From the NCBI GenBank assembly GCA_022578965.1, contig MU400535.1:124001-188000 (forward strand): a DNA stretch of 64,000 nucleotides, given 5' to 3'. The stretch is from Xylaria sp. FL1777. Its lineage: Eukaryota > Ascomycota > Sordariomycetes > Xylariales > Xylariaceae. The notes beneath the pieces were generated by a model. That model saw only the letters and a list, made by a program, of their open reading frames with translations. It did no database searches and was not told the DNA's origin. The position numbers were made by a program, and so were the translations under genes. Positions 48,741 through 62,295 of this stretch are shown here, one piece after another. The first letter of the stretch is position 1; the number at the start of each line of letters is the position of its first letter.

Positions 48741-49469
48741 CTCGATTGCGTTCCTATAAGGAATGTGTAGTTGTCGAGAGTTGCGGTTGGTAAAGAAGGT
48801 ATGAGGTTGCTTCCGTTGTTACCTGTTGCGTAGATAAATAAGTCTAGGGAAATTCTTATCGATAACGACTTCATCTTATCCCTACGACGTAATGTAAGTA
48901 AGTAGGTACCACTTAATAGCCTCATCGACGGCCACAACAACGCATACGCATAGAAACAGATTGCTTTGAATGCAAGAAAGCTCGAAATGTACAGGGTTGC
49001 AAGAGCTGGATTGTTGAAAAGGTCTACAGTATACTGCACGCTGGATGCTCTAACGCTGCTTATTCGAATAAGAACTGAATAACTAATTGAACAACAAATA
49101 CCAACGACCATACTGCATTCCTAGCCCTTCAGAGTGAGATGATGCTCTATTTCCATTTACCAGTGTGGGCAAAGCTGGCCTCACGCTGCATGGGTGTTGG
49201 CGCCGGGAGGGAACACAGGTTACATTGAACCACTGGCAGGGCTTCGATTGGGGGCCTGCATCCGTAAGATTCGGCAAGAGGCGAAGCACAAGCCTGCTGT
49301 CTGTCTGTCCCCTGCGAATTCGCTGCTGCATTCAAGCAATCTGCGCAATGCTTAGGAAGGTCGACCTCGTCCCGTCCATAGATGAGCAGTCTAGACAGCT
49401 ACGAAATCAGACATCGTCTCCATCGGCATTCAATGAGTCTCTTATAGGAAAGTTGTGCTTGCCCTGCCA
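48741..49469. other. Divergent promoter region
   Basis: About 730 bp between NTR2 (minus strand) and the NOD-like receptor gene (plus strand). It marks the change from conserved genes to the accessory island. No gene seen. Confidence 0.5.
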
Positions 49470-52400
49470 ATGGCGTCCCGTGACGAATACCTAGTCGGGT
49501 GGATTTGCGCACTGCCTATAGAGGTGGCGGCAGCCAAAGCCATGCTTGATCGCATTCATGACAACATACCTTCGGATCAGAACATTGACGATGATAATAA
49601 CTACATTCTAGGGAGTCTCCAAGGCCACAATGTTGTAGTCGCATATCCAAAGTCCGGCGTGTACGGCAAGACATCGGTAGCGGGCGTGATCACGCAGTTG
49701 CACGCGAGCTTCAAATCCGTCCAGTTCAATGTGATGGTTGGCATTGCTGGGGGAGTGCCAGGTACAAAAGAGGATATTCGTCTCGGCGATGTTGTTGTAA
49801 GCAAATCAACAGCTGGCTGGCCGGGCGTTGTCCAATACGATGTGAACGAAGAGCGAGGGGAAGATCAACTTAATCGCGGTAAAGCGTTAAATCAGCCTAC
49901 ACCATTACTTCTCACAGCCATAGGCAAGGCTGAGACAGCGGCCATTTTCGATGAAAGTCATATCTCTCAGTACATTTCCAAGATCGTGCAGAGCGACTAC
50001 GTCACCTTTGTGCACCCGGGCCCAGAGCAAGACGTCCTCTTTGAGTCGAATTACGATCACACAACCGTACAGTCCGAGGAGGACGGATGCGACCATTGTG
50101 ACTCGGACAAGATCCAGCCTAGGCAGCCACGGGAGACACAGGATCCTACAATTCATTATGGCCGGATTGCGTCTGGTCATCATTTGATGCGCCACGCAGT
50201 GACTCGGGATAGGTTGGCGCATGAGCAAGGCGTCCTCTGTTTCGAGACGGCCGCAGCTGGCTTAAGGGATGCTGCTCAGTATTTGGTCATTCGAGGAATC
50301 TGCGACTATGCAGATTCGCACAGTTCCAAGCTCTGGCACTCTTACGCCGCCGCCGCAGCAGCGGCATATGCAAGGGAGATTCTTACATTCATTCCCACAA
50401 TTCCCAAGACTAGACCTCTGGCAACGAATACATATGCTGAGGCCGCGCCGGTTCTCAACGCTTTGCTCTTGACCAGACCCGAAGTTGACCGAAAGTCTCT
50501 CATCGCATTGAAAGGTCGCAGAGTTGACGGCACCTGCGAATGGCTCATACAACATCCCAGCTACCAAGAGTGGCTGATAGACGCCAATCTACCACTCCTC
50601 TGGATCTCTGGCGGCCCTGGAAAAGGAAAAACGATGCTGGCAATCTATGTTACTGAGGTCCTACAACCAGTAGTTGATGCTAACGATAATGTTCTCCTTT
50701 ACTACTTCTGTAGCAACCGTGACAAGAACCGGAACACCGCATTGACCATATTGAGAGGCATCATCCATCAATGGGTCGATCGACATCCACACATGGCACA
50801 ACATATCAAGAACTCCTTCGAGGGGACTGAAGCAACCAAATATACCGTGTCCAGCTTTGTCTCCTTGTGGAGGGTTTTCCTAACCCTTATTCGACAGAGT
50901 GCGTCTTCCCAGGTAATCTGTGTGCTAGACGGTTTGGATGAATGCGAAAAGGAATCTCTCAGGCAGCTTCTCGATGCTGTTGGAAATTATTTGTCAAACT
51001 CTCGGGATCAATCAAGTCAACGACTCAAGCTTATTCTTCTCTCCCGACCCCAGCCGGCTGTTCTGGAGAGTAGGCTCGGCCAATATCAGCAGATCAGGTT
51101 GGACAATTCCGACACAGAGGTTTCCCATGATGTTGAGAGGTATATCTTCGCCAAAGTTGCCGAACTGGCATCCGAGCAAAACCTCTCAGAAGAAATGGTC
51201 GCGCATGTTCAACAGACTTTATTGGCTGGCGCGAATGGTACCTTTTTGTGGGTTGGATTCGTTGCCAATGAGCTTCAGGGCAGGAGCCGGGATCAGTTCA
51301 ATGAAATTCTTCGTCGTGTGCCCAAAGGCCTTGGTGGTGTCTATCAGCGGCTGCTTCAGCAAATCGACGACAAGGAAGCGCTGGTGCCCATTCTTCAATG
51401 GATCGTTCTCGCCGCCCGGCCCCTCACAGTGAACGAATTGACAACAGCCACAGGAATCGAGGCTTCGGGCACCTTGCCGGCAACTCAAGTGATCAAGAAT
51501 CGACTCAGATTCTGCGGACTACTCGTCAAAATTGAAGAGGACGTAGTCAACCTGGTCCATGAGTCGGCAAAGGAATTCTTTCAGAGCGATCAAGTCAACA
51601 TCGAAGGGATCAACATGTTTCGCATGAATCAGAACACCCACAAGATTCTTATGCGGACCTGTCTAACACACGTCGAACGTGGATACGGATCTCCTGGAAG
51701 CATTGGCGAGAGGTCTGGCCACGATCCTCTTCTGCTTTATGCCAGTCAATATTGGCCCGTGCATTTCCATCACGCCATTGATGTGATTGACACATCATCC
51801 GAGTTCTCACGCCTATTCTTCCATGTAAATTCGCCAATTCGGGACGAATGGTGGAAGCATTATTGGGAGCAGGAGAAAAATGGCGGAAACCCGCCCTCGT
51901 TCACGCTCTTGCATCTCGCTGCGTACCTTGGCAACGTGACATGGGCTAAGATGTTGATCAGCGAGCATTCCCGCCTCATATCGCGAAAGGACAACTACGG
52001 ACGTACGCCACTACCCTGGGCCGTTAATCGAGGCCACCGAGACATGGTGGAATTACTACTTGACCATGGGGCTCGTGTTAATGCTAAAGATCGAAACAAT
52101 TTGACGGCACTCCATGTCGCGGTCACTGGGCAGCACAAGAGCATCGTGAATGTGCTGCTCGACCATGGTGCCCGTCTCGAGATCAAGTCTGACTATGGCG
52201 AAACAGCATTGATTCGAGCTATTCAGGCGAGTTCGAAGGAGATCATCCAGATATTACTTGAACACGGGGCGCGCGTGAACAAATTGCCAACTCCTCTAGG
52301 AGTTGCTTCTCTGAAAGGGCCTACCGACCCAATGGATGAGCGGGTGAAAGAACTATTGGGACTTCAGGAACAGATCTTCCTCGACAGATACAAGCAGGCG

Positions 52401-53468
52401 TCACGAAGGGTCGACATAGTCATGAAGACCCTGGGTCTTTCTTTCCGTTTTCCCATCATTCTTCAACTGGTAACATTGTATCTGAAGTATTCGGCATTCG
52501 ATCGCTGGGAAAGCATGTCTGTACTGCAGGAGCTCGTAGAGGAGAACAAAACGGACGAACTGCGAGAATGGGCCGAATCATATCGCGAATTCTTCGTACA
52601 GCTGATTGTGGCGAGAAATCCTCGAAGACTGAAAGCCATGACCGACCTGCCGACACAGGTACTTCGGGCGGTCGCTCCTGGAGATCTTAAAGCACTCCTA
52701 GTGATAGCGGTCCTCGTCGGCTCGGAATGTAAACTCGCAGCTGTGCGACACGGGTGGAGAGAAGGAGATACCATCACAGCCCGAGCATTTGCACATTGGA
52801 CCGCCATCGCCTACAACAGAGACGCAGCGGAGTTCCTGCATCACGGCGTCCGCGAGTTTCTAAACGATTTCGATGCCTGCGTCCAAAGTGGCAACCGGGA
52901 AGAGAACGTATTTCGGTCAGTGGTACTTTTGACGGCGCACTTCGCCATGCTCGAGAACAAGGAACCACAACCGATTGAGTACTTTTCTCGAGTCATCGCA
53001 GAGTTCTATGAAGGATATATCGGCGGCAGCCACGAGATCGAACTGTTTAGTGATGTAAATCAGGCTTGCGCCAATGAGCTGACCTTCATCAACGAAAACC
53101 ATGACTCCGTCAGATTGCGTTACTGCCTGACCAGTATCCTCCAATTCGCTCAGCACTCTCAAGAGAAGGGGCAGGACCGCTTTCTCAACGTATTTCCCGC
53201 AGCCCTTTTGATTCTCTGTCACGAGAATGCATTCGCCTACCGATGGCTGATTGGCGAGGCGATCCCAGAAGAAATGAGTGCCTTGATATCAACCCAACCT
53301 CCAGGATCGCTTCAAAAGCGGGCGTGCAAAGCCCTCGCGGAATGTTTGATCATTGGAAAGCAGTATGGCTTATCACTGCCTGCGGCGGCACTAAGACAAA
53401 GAGTAAAACAGCATCTGCACTCGTTACCGGGGGTCGATAATATGATAAATCAGATCGTCGGTTCATAA
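49470..53468 (+). CDS. Fungal NOD-like receptor: PNP_UDP - NACHT - ankyrin repeats - novel C-terminal region
   Basis: Intronless, 1332 aa from the ATG at 49470 (an in-frame ATG at 49455 adds five residues). Residues about 5-305 are a nucleoside-phosphorylase-like PNP_UDP domain (EYLVGWICALPIEVAAAKAM, VMVGIAGGVPG, CFETAAAGL, GICDYADSHSSK). The NACHT-type NTPase follows, with Walker A GGPGKGKT (381-388) and Walker B VICVLDGLDEC (482-492), then a helical segment (GVYQRLLQQID, ARPLTVNEL). At least four ankyrin repeats lie at about 811-955 (TLLHLAAYLGN, LLLDHGARVNAKDRNN). Fungal STAND NTPases of this layout are candidate non-self sensors in incompatibility and programmed cell death. The last ~375 residues (about 955-1332) are helical, are not ankyrin repeats and match no domain I know. 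The frame is fully open, so the gene appears functional. Confidence 0.93.
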   Translation: MASRDEYLVGWICALPIEVAAAKAMLDRIHDNIPSDQNIDDDNNYILGSLQGHNVVVAYPKSGVYGKTSVAGVITQLHASFKSVQFNVMVGIAGGVPGTKEDIRLGDVVVSKSTAGWPGVVQYDVNEERGEDQLNRGKALNQPTPLLLTAIGKAETAAIFDESHISQYISKIVQSDYVTFVHPGPEQDVLFESNYDHTTVQSEEDGCDHCDSDKIQPRQPRETQDPTIHYGRIASGHHLMRHAVTRDRLAHEQGVLCFETAAAGLRDAAQYLVIRGICDYADSHSSKLWHSYAAAAAAAYAREILTFIPTIPKTRPLATNTYAEAAPVLNALLLTRPEVDRKSLIALKGRRVDGTCEWLIQHPSYQEWLIDANLPLLWISGGPGKGKTMLAIYVTEVLQPVVDANDNVLLYYFCSNRDKNRNTALTILRGIIHQWVDRHPHMAQHIKNSFEGTEATKYTVSSFVSLWRVFLTLIRQSASSQVICVLDGLDECEKESLRQLLDAVGNYLSNSRDQSSQRLKLILLSRPQPAVLESRLGQYQQIRLDNSDTEVSHDVERYIFAKVAELASEQNLSEEMVAHVQQTLLAGANGTFLWVGFVANELQGRSRDQFNEILRRVPKGLGGVYQRLLQQIDDKEALVPILQWIVLAARPLTVNELTTATGIEASGTLPATQVIKNRLRFCGLLVKIEEDVVNLVHESAKEFFQSDQVNIEGINMFRMNQNTHKILMRTCLTHVERGYGSPGSIGERSGHDPLLLYASQYWPVHFHHAIDVIDTSSEFSRLFFHVNSPIRDEWWKHYWEQEKNGGNPPSFTLLHLAAYLGNVTWAKMLISEHSRLISRKDNYGRTPLPWAVNRGHRDMVELLLDHGARVNAKDRNNLTALHVAVTGQHKSIVNVLLDHGARLEIKSDYGETALIRAIQASSKEIIQILLEHGARVNKLPTPLGVASLKGPTDPMDERVKELLGLQEQIFLDRYKQASRRVDIVMKTLGLSFRFPIILQLVTLYLKYSAFDRWESMSVLQELVEENKTDELREWAESYREFFVQLIVARNPRRLKAMTDLPTQVLRAVAPGDLKALLVIAVLVGSECKLAAVRHGWREGDTITARAFAHWTAIAYNRDAAEFLHHGVREFLNDFDACVQSGNREENVFRSVVLLTAHFAMLENKEPQPIEYFSRVIAEFYEGYIGGSHEIELFSDVNQACANELTFINENHDSVRLRYCLTSILQFAQHSQEKGQDRFLNVFPAALLILCHENAFAYRWLIGEAIPEEMSALISTQPPGSLQKRACKALAECLIIGKQYGLSLPAAALRQRVKQHLHSLPGVDNMINQIVGS

Positions 53469-53946: not shown

Positions 53947-56900
53947 CTATCCCACCAGCCGTTTCCAAAGGCTCTTCACGCCCGACCGAGCTGAACCCGC
54001 TTTACGCTTATGATCATTAGTTTGATTATTAGGCGCTACTTGGGGTATTGGCATACTTGACGTCGACTCTTCCTGGTGAGATAGCCCTGACGGGGGCATG
54101 ATAGTTGATATCGATCGGTCCGGCTTTGGTGAAGTTGATCGGCGATCCTTCATAAGTGCCAATTTAATTTGACGCTCAACCTCGGGGTCAGGGTCTCTCT
54201 TTCTGTATCCGGCTCTCTCGAGCCGTAGGAGAACGTCGCTATCCGAAATAAATTCTTCCCATGTTTTGCGTCCGGTTGGGAGGATATTAGGGTTCGCACC
54301 CCTATCGAGAAGCAAATCCATGATGGGAAGCATGCGCTTCTTGGCAGCGTAGTATAGCGCAGTCCTTCTTCCAGAATTCCCTACATCAAGGGAGTGGCCC
54401 TTTTGTAAGAGGACTTTGATCATAGGAACGCTGCCTATGATAACAGCCTGCTGTAAGCCTGTGGTCGCCCTGCAGCAGCGCGACTTGCTAAAAGCTAAGT
54501 TGCAGATCACTTTATAAGAATGGCTAGATGGCCCGAGATCTAGCCATTCTTCTGCAGTGCGGCCGCTCTCATCGACGAGGGCCTGAAGCTCTGCAATAAC
54601 ATAGCTGCCAAGCAGGACATTGACAGTAGCCAGATCCCGACTATGTATGGCTAGATGGAGAACGGACCATCCATGATTATCCTGTTGAGAAGCACTGGAT
54701 CTTACGCGGTTGTCTTCTAGGAGGCGCCGGACAACGTGAGAATGCCCCATGAAGGCGGCGTGATGTAATGCAGTCCAGCCGTGACATGTTGACTTGAGCG
54801 GGTCGGCTCGGTCTTGAAGAAGCAAATCCACGATGGAAATATGGCCCCCATTTGCAGCACAGTGTAATGGTGAGGTACCATAAGAGCTGACGGCATCGAT
54901 TTCGGCTCCTGCATCCAATAACAATTGCACAATAAGCCGATGGCCCTCTTCTGCTGCCCAATGTATTGCGGACCAGCCATCGCGATCAGAACAATTTGGG
55001 TCCGCACCATTTCTAAGTATCAATTTTACGAGGGCATTGCCAGAAGCTGCTGCTTCTGCTAACGGCGTCATGAGGCTCTTTTGAGATCCAAACTGTACTC
55101 CAGCACCACCGTCGAGAAGTAACAGAGCAATTGCAGACCTGCCGAGATTGGCTGCCCAAGCCAGAGCAGACTTTCCATCTGCGCTGATAGAATTGACGTC
55201 GGCACCGAGTGATATCAATCTATTAGTGGCGTCGAATTGCCCACAAACTACAGCCCAGATGAACGGAGAGATTCCATAATTGTCAGTGGTACGAACGTCA
55301 GCACCATGGCTATTCAACATATCTATGCCGCCGGTCGAGTCCGTCTCTGCAGCGTAATGCAGTGCTGTTTGGCCGTTGTCATCGCCTAAATTGATTAAGG
55401 CTTCGCCGCCGGCGTTCAGCAGTAGACTCAATATACTATCACTATGAAATTGACTCATGGAAGCATAGTGCAACGCCGTCCTGCCGTGTTTGTCTCGGCT
55501 GCCCAGACTTGCGCCTCCGCGGACCAAGGACTCAGTCAAGGCCAGATTGCCGGCTTGTACGGCGTGGTGAAGCGGTGTCATTCCCGAGTCGTCTTTGTCC
55601 TCCAAGTCGAGTTTTGTTACTAATGGGTTAATGTGCTCTTCGCTGTCGTCTGAAATGCTACTTGGAGCCTTAATGTCGTCCTGAAAGTCTAGATCTTCAT
55701 CGTCCAGCACACTGTACATGGAACCCCGCAACATTGCAAACCCTGGCCCATCATCTTCTAATGGTTGGTCGCTATCGACGTTTGTAGCGGTTTCGTCAAC
55801 ATCGCTAGGTAATTTCTGCAACGTAAGAAGGGCGATCTCTTTTATGTGCGCGGCGACGTGTAACTGGAGAGCGTCGCTCGAGAATACAGCACTGGAGTCG
55901 ATTTTGTCTGGGGGTTGAAAATCATCGCCAAACGGGCATTCGAGCACCTTTTCGAGGACTGGTCTCCGTGCTGCGCTGCTAAGAGTCCCGGCATGGGCTT
56001 CGGGGACACCATGCTCTTTGATGGAATGCTCTTGATACTGAGACTCCTGGTCGAAGATGATGGGATCGTGAGAAGGGGCTCTGCATTCCCATGTATGCCC
56101 GTGAGCATTCTGCATGTGGCTGATCCAGGCTTTTGACGTTTCAAATGTGAGCGGGCCAGTCCCATGTTGACCAGCTTCCAAGCAGTGTGTGAAGACACAA
56201 ACGAAAGGCTCCAGATCTCCGATGACATGATTGCTGAGGCATGTTAGTTAGATGTTATACTATAACAAGAATAATGATCGGCTTACTGCCACAACATTGA
56301 CTTCGCAGTGCTCTTGAACTCAATGATGACGCCGCAGTATGGGCACTCGTCTGTTGGTGGTAATGGTGGGAACGACAATTTGTTGTTCACAAGAACAGAC
56401 TTGGCCCGAGGAACCTCGGTTGTGGATCTGGCGTACAACGCCCCAACAGCAGTCTGTCGAGCAGTAGTTGCATTCGTTACCGGCACTGGCGGAGGGCCGG
56501 CTGGTCCCGATGTTTTGTCGATAGTCGCGGACTTTGGTAGCACGCTCGGAGCAAAACGCACGAGCGGAGAATTCTCCTTTATCTTGGGCAATTGAAAAAC
56601 AGTCGGGGTGGTTTGTGGTTTCTGAACACTCAGTTCAATGCGCCTTCGATGGGATCGCTGATAATACAGCCGTCGAAGTCGCAGCGCATTAGCTTCAACC
56701 AATGCTACGCGAAGTGAATCCGGCGCCATGGGATATCGGAAACGGATGTAGCATTCTGTATAAAGGCGCAACTCGGCTATCGCGTTATTTGCCTCTTCAT
56801 CATCGCGATACCCTTCAATCTTACGCGCTCGGTTGGCTTTCGCGGATTTTCGAACAGCATTGGATAGACGAAAGAGCCGTGTTACTGTCCCGCCGATTGT

Positions 56901-57486
56901 ATCGGTAATTTTCGAAATGTTCTCCGCTTCTTGGTCCACGTCACTGTCGGAATCGCTTGCATCGTAATCAGCTCTGCGCTTGAATTCCGAGTCGCCATGC
57001 TTTGATATGCGTTGTCTCTTTCTGCTCGGAGTTTGTGGAGGGTTATCAATTAGCTTCACTACCATATTGTGGAATTTCACATTAGCATATAGTCCTTGAC
57101 GTTCAGTCCAGCCAGATTCAGCTCTACAGATACTTACAAGATGCCAAAGTGTCACAAATGACGTCCAGGAGCTGGTGTATGATCTCTACGACTGTAGGAC
57201 TGAATCGGAGTCTGTAGTCTAACGAAACATTGAGCGGTCCGTAAACATCCATATTTGATGTCCACAGTGTAAAGCGTGCCAACTGGTCATCCATGATAGT
57301 AGGGTCGGGCACGACTTCGGGCAAGACTATATATTTATTGAAAAGGGCGTTGCATTGTGTTGCGTGTTCTGCGATAGTCGGGCAAAGACCATCTTGAAGG
57401 AAGACATCTTCAATAGAATCGTCTTGCATACGATCAAGACTTTTCATGGTGAGAGAGTTGTGCCAAAAATCCATGAAGCTGATCAC
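53947..57486 (-). CDS. C2H2-like / ankyrin repeat protein
   Basis: Three exons, 57138-57486, 56287-57058 and 53947-56233, give 1135 aa. The N-terminal region (FTLWTSNMDVYGPLNVSLDY, RLFRLSNAVRKSAKANRARK) is the helical domain common at the head of fungal C2H2 and ankyrin proteins. Zinc-finger-like segments follow at the exon 2/3 junction: DECPYCGVIIEF, then DLEPFVCVFTHC, AWISHMQNAHGHTWEC and HSIKEHGV. About twelve ankyrin repeats follow (about 590-1040; GMTPLHHAVQAGN, TALHYASMS, AIHWAAEEGH). The tail is basic and Ser/Thr-rich. Such proteins are often found beside fungal NLR and het loci; here it may act as an adaptor, but that is inference. It is divergent from the protease gene and convergent with the NLR gene. 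A MITE-like element lies beyond its 3' end. Confidence 0.87.
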
Positions 57487-58354: not shown

Positions 58355-61300
58355 ATGGATCAAGATGAATCCCAGGGTCTGTTGAAGACCGTGCTTGGGT
58401 TCTTCGCTCGAAGACAACCGGAAAGGTCAGCGCGCACGTCATTGAAATCTAAGAAACGTGATGCTTGGCTACGGACGGATGCGTATCTGCAACATGATAC
58501 TGATGGAATCGGCGAAATTGACCCTGAGCGACTTGCGAGGACGCTACGCGCATTTGAAGAGTATATCGAGTATGACTCTGACCGAGACTCGGACTCCGTA
58601 AGTGTTCCTCATACAGGACAAGCTTCAGTCCATCAATAGCTCACCTCCTGCCCACAATTAACACAAGAGTATGAAGCAGATCTCACACCACAATGTGCCG
58701 TATCCAAAACTTCAGACGGTGCGCAACATGATCGAGCGTCCGAGCCATGGTCCGCATTCTAATCTGGGCACCACAATTCGCGTTAGTAAACGGGGACGTG
58801 AAAGTGATGCCATCATTGAGGAGCTCTCGTATTTAGACAGAGAGGCGAAGAAGCGCCGCGTTTTGCCTCGTGAAGAGCCGAGTACCGGCGACAACCTCGA
58901 AGACCCGGATGCTGACTCCGCGATAGTGACGAGGAAACACCTGGTGTCTTTAGACAATGCATTAAGGAAACACTGGGTATGTGTTTGTCGGAACTGCTCA
59001 GGGCTAAGCGTGAGACTTTCAGTGCCAAAGCGGAAAAAGAACTCAGAGATTGAGACGTCGTTCGAGGTCTTCTTCGTACGGTCTCTATCAGCAACTACGA
59101 TGCAGGAGGCCAAAATAACGGTCAAGTTAAGCGTTTGACTCTTCATGTAATGAATTATAACTGACATTTTCGGGGTAGAGATGTGAACAACAACATGACG
59201 AGGAGGGTATTTGAGCCTGTAGCCAGTGATATGTCTACTTTTGCTCATATATGCCAAAGCATTACCGACTCCCTCGGTCAGCGAAACTGCTTACACTTGG
59301 CTCTCGAGGATGGGTCATTCCAGAGGCTACGTCCGCAACCAAAGACCTTTGGCGGGGACCGAATGTCTCGGGCAGTGTCCTTGTCAGCTTTATTCAAACA
59401 TCAACAAGAATTACGTGGTAGTTCATCTGCATTGCCACTCAAGGGGAAACGAATCTTAGCTGTCACCTTGGCTACAGCTCTCCTCCCATTCTTGGAGACA
59501 CCGTGGCTGCAGCCGTCTTTCAATCACTCGAAGATACAGTTCTTTCAGCCATTGCAGGATGGAGAACTCCCCGATATCACGAAACCCTTTTTGGCCATGG
59601 AGCACATTCCGATCATCTCAGCGGGCAAGACAAACAATGGAGTTGATTTTGACAGCTCTAAACACAGGGTTCATCCCAATGCCAGTGTATTGGCTCTGGG
59701 TATACTTCTGTGTGAGCTTCACTATTGCACACCTGTGGAGCTGATGCAGAAGGACTCGGATGCCGCCAGGAACGTTAACACCGATTATTATACCAGCCTT
59801 GAGATGCTCAAGACTCTAGAAGTCGACGCTGGCGTGGATTACTATCTCGCTACGAAGGCATGCCTTCAGTGGGAGTACTATCCCCCCGGACAGCAGGCTG
59901 ACTTCGAATCTATCAGCGTACAACGGCTCTTCTATCAAAACGTTGTCAAACGACTTGAGGCCGAGATCTTCAAGTCTTGGGGTCTTCGAATAGAGGATTT
60001 GGGCTCTTTTGATCCTCGAGCGAATGAACTATGCTGGGGTCCCATCGGTCGAGAAGTTGTCCGCAATCAAACAGGCAGCGCCGATTCTTCCGAAGCACAT
60101 ACCGGAACACGGGCCCCTCAGCATCGGTCGCTTTCTGACAGCGCGCCTGTGAGCAACCCAACCCTCAACTCAGATATGGCGCTGCGAATACCTTCTTCAG
60201 GATCACCATTCCGTAGAGACCTCGCCGATGCTTCGAATAAGAGTTTGTACTTCTTTGACGCAAGCCACCAGATGGGATGTGAGCAAGAGTGAGGTGTTTC
60301 CTTCATGGCAATAATACTTCATCGTACTAATGACCTACCAGAAATCAACTTTCAAAAGACTGGATGGACAATCTTACGTCTTCGATTCATCATTATGTTG
60401 ACTCTTTCGACACTGTGCAACCTGGGTGCGGAACGTTCAAACCGGTGCGAATAGCGATTTTGGATTCCGGGTTTGACCCTGAGAATCCATTTCTGATGAC
60501 AGGAGACCAAGGACTAGATCCACGAATTAAATATGCGCAAAGTTTTGTACATCAATCAGAACCACACGATATCCGAGACGATATTGGCCACGGCACTCAT
60601 GCTCTCGGCCTTCTACTTAAGGTTGCCACCTGCGCTGAGATCTACATAGCCAGAATTGCTAATCGAGAAACTTTGGATCGTAATACTTACGACGATATTG
60701 CAAAGGCAAGACCCCGGCTCTATCGCAGAACAGACTTCGAGATGAAGCTAATGGTTTGCATAGGCTATCAACCACGCGGTTTCCGAATGGAAAGTGGACA
60801 TTATATCGATGTCATTCGGCATTCGTGAATATAACGAACCTATCAAAACAGCGATATCCAATGCACTACACAGTCAGACATTGTTGTTTGCTGCGGCATC
60901 GAACGATGGCGCAAATCTAGGCAGAGCTTTTCCAGCTAAATACCCCAGCGTCTTTTGCATACATTCAACCGATGGGAATGGTAACCCCTCCGCGTTCAAC
61001 CCGACAGCAGACGTCAAAGACGTCAATTTCAGTCTACTTGGAGAGCATGTCTCTTCGCACTGGCCGATCGGCATGAAAGGCTGCAATCAGCCTATCAATA
61101 CCATGTCAGGAACATCGGTTGCAACACCGATTGCCGCTGGGCTCACGGCCTCAATCCTGTCCTTTGTGCGGCAACAGGAACAGCACATGGCCCCAGGGAG
61201 CGATTTGCTCGGGCCGTGGCTGAAGGATGCCCATTCAATGGATGCGGTTCTGAAGCTTATGGTCAGACAGACGAGGGGGGCAGGTTACGACTATATCACG

Positions 61301-61384
61301 CCCCATGTACTCTTTGACAGAAGGTCAACAAGGGATCGTGTTTACGACAAGATCAATGATATCAGGAGACACATGTATGATTAG
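58355..61384 (+). CDS. DUF7580 - subtilisin-like (peptidase S8) protein, candidate gasdermin-activating protease
   Basis: Five exons, 58355-58597, 58668-59125, 59179-60288, 60342-60705 and 60764-61384, give 931 aa. The N-terminal half (about 180-545) has the DUF7580 pattern of fungal cell-death proteins: DNALRKHWVCVCRNC, CQSITDSLGQRNCLHLALED, LPLKGKRILAVTLATALLPF and HPNASVLALGILLCELHY. The C-terminal part is an S8 protease with Asp645 (ILDSG), His687 (DIGHGTHA), the oxyanion Asn772 (AAASND) and Ser843 (MSGTSVATP), all intact. There is no signal peptide, so it should be cytosolic. The fourth intron has a GC donor (AAG/GCAAGA) and a normal AG acceptor; the splice restores AINHAVSEWKVDIISMSFG. 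The gene converges, 62 bp away, on the gasdermin-like gene, and subtilases are known to activate fungal gasdermins by cleavage. Exon 2 borders are the least certain. Confidence 0.88.
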
Positions 61385-61446
61385 GAACATAGGAATAGGT
61401 AGTCTAGTCAATTAACACCCGTACATAATTGCATTTCAAGATCGTT

Positions 61447-62295
61447 TCACCGAAATCCAGCGGGGACGCAATAGACAATGCTATTCTCGGTCGCATCAGA
61501 AACTGTTTTCGCAGTCTCGATAGCAGACCCATCCACGTCCTCGACCAAAACAGCAGCATCATCATCCTCGTCTTCTTGTTTCCCACCAATGGCCAAGAAA
61601 GCCCCTTTGTTGTACTCTTCAAGCTTCAATTTCCGCCCAATCTTAAGCCTTTTGACGCGAAACGCAAACACAAATTCAGACTCACGATTGAATTCCGTAC
61701 AATCGTTACCCGCGCTGACCCAATGGCCCTTTGGACCAAATGTTGCACCCAGCGCATGCATGTCGACACCCATGTTCCCGGTGACTGCGGTGTTGCGAGA
61801 AGTCGAGTATTTGATCCTCGCGCCTTTGACGAGCTTTATGCCTGTGACGAGGAACAGCGTGGCGATGGGCGCGAATCGCTGCTTGGGCTCCCTCAGCCAC
61901 GTCTGCACCGCGGGTGCCTTGATGGCTTCCTCGACAAACTCCTGCGTCGGCTCAAACGCCAAAGTCGTCACGGAATCAAATGCGAACGCATTCACTGTTT
62001 CGTTCGAATGATCAACGCTTACTTCAGGGCCGAGGGGCAATCCGCCGGTAGCTAGCTGCAGGAACTGTGCATAAACACCCAAGCCGAGCCCTGTCTTGGT
62101 GGAAACGGTCTTCTTCCAGTCGGTTTCTACGACGGGTGGAATTGTGTCGGCCACGGTAGTCAAATTGCCCCTATTTAGAGGGTATTGCGGTGTTGACGTG
62201 GAGCGAATTATAGATCCAAGACATAGCGGCCCTGCTGGCGGGGGATGAATGAAATCAGACGTTGGACACAGAAAATACGTCTTTACAAATGACAT
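61447..62295 (-). CDS. Candidate fungal gasdermin-like pore-forming protein
   Basis: Intronless, 282 aa from the ATG at 62295. The frame is open upstream to an ATG at 62436, but the extra 47 residues look like leader sequence, and MSFVKTYFLCPTSDF is a family-like beginning. Main blocks are GPLCLGSIIRS (22-32), VETDWKKTVSTKTGLGLGVY (56-75), a region likely rich in beta strands (FAFDSVTTLAFEPTQEFVEE, LFLVTGIKLVKGARI) and EFVFAFRVKRLK (207-218). A charged tail (about 219-282, acidic near 240-255) ends the protein. Length, an N-terminal lipid-binding-like part plus short C-terminal tail, and the convergent subtilase neighbour fit the RCD-1/HET-Q1 gasdermin-like family. Those proteins are kept inactive by a short tail and freed by proteolysis to permeabilise the plasma membrane. 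The assignment rests on pattern and context; otherwise it is a conserved fungal protein of unknown function. Confidence 0.65.
   Translation of the reverse strand: MSFVKTYFLCPTSDFIHPPPAGPLCLGSIIRSTSTPQYPLNRGNLTTVADTIPPVVETDWKKTVSTKTGLGLGVYAQFLQLATGGLPLGPEVSVDHSNETVNAFAFDSVTTLAFEPTQEFVEEAIKAPAVQTWLREPKQRFAPIATLFLVTGIKLVKGARIKYSTSRNTAVTGNMGVDMHALGATFGPKGHWVSAGNDCTEFNRESEFVFAFRVKRLKIGRKLKLEEYNKGAFLAIGGKQEDEDDDAAVLVEDVDGSAIETAKTVSDATENSIVYCVPAGFR

Follow-up and report, generated by a model that had tools for sequence, protein, structure and literature searches.

The question raised by this locus is whether two convergent fungal genes, one for a subtilase and one for a small gasdermin-like protein, encode a cell-death system in which the protease activates the pore former. 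The genes lie in a 64,000-nucleotide stretch of the Xylaria sp. FL1777 genome (hereafter the window), located on a contig of 408,674 bp (C30) within a genome of 58.7 Mb. In Podospora, with HET-Q1 and HET-Q2, a subtilisin-like protease cuts a gasdermin-like partner near its C-terminus, and such genes are often neighbours across fungi. Here, homology, intact catalytic residues, conserved linkage, a conserved cut-site motif, and common history, all obtained by computation, point to a fungal gasdermin cell-death locus, which probably consists of the protease-gasdermin pair and a linked third gene for an ankyrin protein.

Identity of the two convergent genes

The gasdermin-like protein of 282 aa is encoded by a single exon at 61447..62295 on the minus strand. 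Its open reading frame (ORF) is intact, and the same Met start column is used in 35 of 39 aligned homologs. A Pfam scan of the protein returned zero matches. In a phmmer comparison with solved structures, RCD-1-2 (8jyz_B) was matched at 1.1e-9 and RCD-1-1 at 5.5e-6, and nothing except RCD-1 entries appeared at E < 0.01. The profile search against RCD-1 and HET-Q1 that the earlier note on this DNA had proposed was carried out with alignment A2, whose ten rows are the window gasdermin, seven homologs, and two further proteins described below (the C18 protein and P0234). This family profile matched RCD-1-1 (2.3e-16), RCD-1-2, and the HET-Q1 pores (9uv9_A, 4.1e-8) in the PDB. Furthermore, the bacterial gasdermin (bGSDM) model of PADLOC was matched over residues 58-239 at 1.2e-4. 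As judged by homology over its N-terminal domain, the protein is a fungal gasdermin, and the resemblance first noticed from the sequence is borne out by the matches among solved structures. For the other outcome that would have refuted the earlier note, a lack of similarity to the gasdermin N-terminal fold, the answer comes solely from this sequence homology.

The product of the neighbouring gene (58355-61384, plus strand) has 931 aa and is encoded in five exons. The exons were placed at 58355..58597, 58668..59125, 59179..60288, 60342..60705, and 60764..61384, the last including the stop codon; the fourth intron (60706-60763) is of the rarer GC-AG type. The public record of the strain, F5Y12DRAFT_795492 (P0121), differs from this model solely by 4 residues at the first splice site, its exon 2 beginning 12 bases later. 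DUF7580 (PF24476) was recognized by Pfam in residues 170-497 (58932..59968, one intron inside) at E = 4.8e-31, with 109 bits against a curated cut-off of 27, and Peptidase_S8 in residues 639-860 (60445..61168, one intron inside) at E = 1.9e-23, well over its cut-off, the positions of both domains being converted by hand. The catalytic residues Asp645 (60463), His687 (60589), Asn772 (60902), and Ser843 (61115) are intact at the same numbers as reported earlier. In the first 60 residues no 19-residue window averages above 0 on the Kyte-Doolittle scale, and therefore no signal peptide is apparent. The gap of 62 bp between the two stop codons (61385..61446) and the convergent arrangement were likewise confirmed.

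In DUF7580, which occupies the N-terminal half of the protease, helices and strands follow one another in a kinase-like order as judged by eye, and in one gene on contig C135 DUF7580 and Pkinase are matched over identical residues, both below their cut-offs. No HxD motif, DFG motif, or glycine loop, as expected of an active kinase, was found in residues 166-500 of P0121. The A4 profile gave no kinase match in the PDB, and no kinase was among the matches listed in the fold comparison, a list occupied by S8. The domain looks like a possible pseudokinase, and the sensor-like role that the earlier note gave to this half is likewise a possibility. DUF7580 was absent from the literature searched, which did not include Clave et al. 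2022.

Pairing of gasdermin and protease

A protein search of the genome located gasdermins at two places, C30 and C18, a count that holds for this search, as more distant gasdermins may exist. At both, the gasdermin gene faces a DUF7580-S8 gene tail to tail, across 62 bp at C30 and 47 bp at C18; the C18 gasdermin has 299 aa and matches RCD-1-1 at 1.8e-6. DUF7580 is present at ten places in the genome and Peptidase_S8 gave 24 matches over 18 contigs, with both domains present at three of the loci, C30, C18, and C319. At C319 the third DUF7580-S8 gene is faced convergently, 192 bp away, by a 252-aa protein, P0234 (L009 5075-5833, minus strand). The position of P0234 fits that of a third gasdermin, but it gave no PDB match up to E 10, no PADLOC match, and a weak profile comparison, and is a candidate only; since it is itself among the A2 rows, the A2 profile is no test of it. 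The S8 genes at C40 and C19, which by eye resemble secreted or vacuolar subtilases, showed no gasdermin-like ORF when the surrounding 10 kb were inspected. The pairing of gasdermin with a DUF7580-S8 protease is more than chance.

In other fungi, contigs of equal length were used as a proxy for the same contig, gene orientation lying outside this proxy. Of the 120 gasdermin homologs listed (the best 120 of 307), 67 named ones entered the comparison, as did 99 named ones of the 113 proteases listed; rows belonging to the window itself, those with no name or of metagenomic origin, and the seven proteases furthest removed were set aside. Among the matches listed, 28 gasdermin rows belong to species found in both lists, and in 25 of them the contigs are of equal length. 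The remaining three, from Trichoderma virens, Metarhizium anisopliae, and Aspergillus wentii, may represent different assemblies. Trichoderma reesei also has a gasdermin homolog, P0116. No equal lengths were encountered between different species among the listed gasdermin and protease rows. Numbered locus tags were available for 17 pairs, with a difference of 1 in seven, 2 in two, 20 in one, and >20,000 in seven; the latter are all JGI ‘DRAFT’ tags, the numbering of which is taken as not serial. Synteny of the gasdermin family with S8 proteases, the absence of which the earlier note had regarded as fatal to its proposal, is thus present in other fungi.

The third gene

The protease gene of the window is preceded by a divergently transcribed gene for an ankyrin protein of 1116-1131 aa (53947..57474, minus strand), with exons at ~57474 (or 57429)-57138, 57058-56287, and 56233-53947. 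The gene model is a prediction, supported by Pfam ankyrin repeats and by homologs; the middle of the protein is Cys/His-rich and, by eye, C2H2-like. Its N-terminal domain was detected at no fewer than four genomic loci (C30, C18, C3, and C22), at all four of which the gene adjoins, and is divergent from, a DUF7580 gene, accompanied by S8 and gasdermin at C30 and C18. At C18 and C22 a 90-row family profile picked up both the N-terminal domain and the middle, and at C27 it picked up the middle. At C3 the same profile gave 0.02 against 0.011 for the best shuffled control, no better than the control, and so the assignment there rests on the domain search (1.3e-7).

Homologs of the ankyrin gene occur in genera such as Trichoderma and Aspergillus; the best 120 of 232 were listed, and 91 named rows were used. 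Contigs of equal length were shared with other listed rows as follows: gasdermin in 27, protease in 37, either in 54, and both in 10. Locus tags, with JGI DRAFT numbers mostly excluded, differed by 2 in 11 of 15 protease-ankyrin pairs (3, 4, 70, and 5437 once each) and by 1 in seven of 12 gasdermin-ankyrin pairs (2 in two, 4 in two, and 60 in one). According to the tags, gasdermin is the middle gene in 4/4 complete sets (Aspergillus alliaceus, Ophiocordyceps australis, Pestalotiopsis fici, and Kalmusia). In the window and at C18 the middle gene is the protease, and therefore the protease-gasdermin block appears inverted relative to the ankyrin gene in one arrangement. The ankyrin gene belongs to the protease-gasdermin cluster and is another candidate for a sensor, absent from the pair described earlier. 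One homolog, P0282 of Chaetothyriales sp. CBS 132003, carries TPR repeats instead of ankyrin repeats.

Joint history of the block

Under a simpler model, a gasdermin tree was built from the window protein and 53 of the 67 named homologs, and a protease tree from the window protein with 44 of the 99; both contain many weak forks, and the gasdermin bootstrap is not settled. Both trees mix fungal classes, the starred branches alone requiring at least 2-3 changes for Sordariomycetes and Eurotiomycetes. Class labels nevertheless cluster far above shuffled labels, so a vertical signal is also present. Over 26 gasdermin-protease pairs, mean distances within and across classes were 0.220 and 0.229 for the gasdermin, and 0.293 and 0.308 for the protease. 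Gasdermin and protease distances correlated at r 0.76, overall and across classes, a value attained by 0 of 2000 within-class permutations. For 37 ankyrin-protease pairs, r was 0.93 overall and 0.91 across classes, with 0 of 1000 permutations as high. Linked genes share genealogies regardless of function, and the correlations therefore reflect joint inheritance, not joint function. Proteases of Coniella (Sordariomycetes) and Periconia (Dothideomycetes) are 90% identical, which is high across fungal classes. The 92% identity between Pyrenula and Periconia could reflect contamination, as the Pyrenula sequence comes from a metagenome bin. The genes are passed on as a block, and the history of this block does not follow taxonomy, which fits either its transfer from one class to another or very ancient lineages that run in parallel and are strongly constrained.

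Candidate cut site and proposed mechanism

The earlier note had drawn a charged tail from about residue 218 of the gasdermin and named Tyr228 and Phe233 as possible cut positions. An acidic tail is indeed present. Similarity to RCD-1 stops near residue 217, and across the 120 listed homologs the most conserved of seven blocks measured runs from 207 to 233 (mean 0.92), so the tail is better drawn as residues 234-282 (61450..61596, minus strand; net charge -9, 5.1 kDa), the presumed inhibitor. In the same homologs, residues 234-250 form the least conserved block (0.52), residues 251-278 are conserved again (0.83), and the net charge beyond 233 ranges from -13 to -4. Phe233 (61597..61599, minus strand) is Phe in 119/120 and is the better candidate for the P1 residue; Tyr228 (61612..61614, minus strand), which is Tyr in 113/120, is the poorer. 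The likeliest cut would be after Phe233, releasing the 5.1-kDa acidic tail, and this residue is a definite candidate site.

What we infer from these data comprises the trigger, the occurrence and position of a cut, the making of pores, and a sensing role for the ankyrin protein. The gasdermin would be made inactive, restrained by its short acidic C-terminal tail. A trigger may be passed on via the ankyrin protein, the DUF7580 half of the protease, or both. Subsequently, the cytosolic S8 protease would cleave the gasdermin after Phe233, freeing ~5 kDa, and residues 1-233 would assemble as pores in the plasma membrane, killing the compartment.

Comparison with known systems

The comparison is based on excerpts of four articles (PMC12881547, PMC10197012, PMC10989679, and PMC9815663), and statements on published systems refer to these excerpts. 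The closest likeness is to HET-Q1/HET-Q2 of Podospora anserina, likewise a gasdermin (profile match 4.1e-8) with an S8 serine protease. HET-Q1 is cut at F238 (40 residues, ~5 kDa; PMC12881547, PMC10989679), and the window gasdermin likewise ends in a short tail of about that size, with Phe where the cut is presumed. HET-Q2 has 388 aa (PMC10989679), in contrast to 931 aa with DUF7580 here. RCD-1 of Neurospora crassa shares the homologous pore-forming domain, but is activated when two allelic forms meet and not by cleavage (PMC12881547). Bacterial gasdermin defence also encodes a pore former and a protease together (PMC12881547, PMC10197012), in keeping with the bGSDM match; the window locus differs in being fungal, in its other accessory domains, and in its convergent genes.

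Two-gene fungal clusters of a Q2L protease and a fungal gasdermin (fGSDM) were reportedly described by Clave et al. 2022, as relayed by reviews. The window pair resembles them in its S8 protease with complete catalytic residues and its conserved gasdermin neighbourhood. Protease genes form clusters with about 80% of fungal gasdermin genes, and S8 genes with ~60% (PMC10989679, PMC10197012), and the protease-gasdermin pair alone is of a published kind (PMC12881547, PMC10197012). The excerpts of the two reviews list ANK, TPR, WD40, and NLR architectures and ‘other predicted kinase-like domains’, and do not name DUF7580 or this ankyrin third gene (PMC12881547, PMC10197012); three-gene gasdermin clusters are mentioned there in general terms (PMC12881547). 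The set of ankyrin, DUF7580-S8, and gasdermin was not met in the literature searched, which did not include Clave et al. 2022. The points worth pursuing beyond the published pair are the linkage of the ankyrin gene and the inheritance as a block. What stimulates fungal gasdermin pathways has been called a major open question (PMC12881547), and the conserved ankyrin partner offers a definite candidate for the upstream component that is missing.

Weighing of alternative explanations

Several points weigh against a three-gene cell-death locus. The AlphaFold2 model of the gasdermin (alignment of 40 close homologs) reached a pLDDT of 41.8 and is unusable, the C18 gasdermin carries Met at the Phe233 position, and DUF7580 is a domain family without known function. 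Furthermore, 37 of the 91 named ankyrin homologs share no equal-length contig with listed gasdermin or protease matches, and at C3 and C22 the ankyrin gene adjoins DUF7580 genes without S8 or gasdermin (10 kb around, by eye, and S8 search), so its role need not concern gasdermin. This last observation favours a two-gene system in which the protease would be both receptor and activator, with DUF7580 as its sensing half and the ankyrin gene as a linked but separate immunity gene, and published fungal pairs do consist of a pore former and a multidomain protease-sensor (PMC12881547, PMC10197012). The linkage of the ankyrin gene to the pair in many fungi, with distances that track those of the protease, speaks against such a separation, although linkage alone would also produce this agreement of distances; on balance we consider the two-gene system unlikely. 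It is also a serious, if tentative, possibility that ankyrin sensor, pseudokinase-protease, and gasdermin form a portable three-gene death unit, inherited as a block and moved between classes, whose ankyrin and DUF7580 core is reused without protease and gasdermin at C3, C22, and perhaps C27, the output being exchangeable. Movement of the whole set from class to class, if it does occur, would be a counterpart to the mobile defence systems of bacteria.

A determinant of allorecognition (heterokaryon incompatibility) similar to het-Q or rcd-1, causing death upon fusion of unlike strains and not upon infection or damage, would agree with the role of the characterised fungal gasdermins (PMC12881547), with two divergent cassettes found under one Xylaria scruposa assembly prefix, and with several gasdermin lineages inside Xylaria. 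Yet het-Q1 and het-Q2 are idiomorphs (PMC12881547), whereas the window genes are neighbours with a linked third gene; because both stand side by side in one genome, the het-Q arrangement does not apply, and this explanation appears very improbable. That the 282-aa protein is no pore former and stands beside the protease by accident is scarcely credible: the empty Pfam scan and the unusable structure prediction are outweighed by the gasdermin matches in PDB and PADLOC and by the linkage at C18 and in 25/28 species rows. A fungal gasdermin cell-death locus is retained as the preferred explanation.

Genomic context and neighbouring genes

Inverted repeats were considered as a cause of the window gene order; four pairs of 14-27 nt, 78-93% complementary, were found, none framing the block. 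Base composition at 53-63 kb is 43-53% GC per kb, inside the 43-59% range of the 20 kb viewed. Of 11 genomic matches to the Starship captain domain (DUF3435), none falls on C30, C18, or C319. One flank of the C319 cluster (L019, 1-7200) has 11-24% GC and no ORF of at least 90 aa, resembling decayed repeat DNA. A fused third-gene domain was suspected in the second DUF7580 gene of C319, which gave no match to the ankyrin family profile.

Three DUF7580 genes without S8 (L012 3741-5656, L013 4225-6218, and L015 2549-4649, all on the plus strand) are each divergent from a Cys/His-rich gene, and have similar N-termini of no clear Pfam family. By eye, the DUF7580 genes at C3, C22, and C27 seemed to have HeLo-type N-termini, but Pfam gave no HeLo match and the idea was dropped. 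Within the window, a 1337-aa ORF (49455-53468, plus strand) with PNP_UDP_1, NACHT/NPHP3_N, and ankyrin domains encodes an NLR-type protein; 478 bp separate its end from that of the ankyrin gene, and four immunity-type genes thus stand consecutively at 49.5-62.3 kb.
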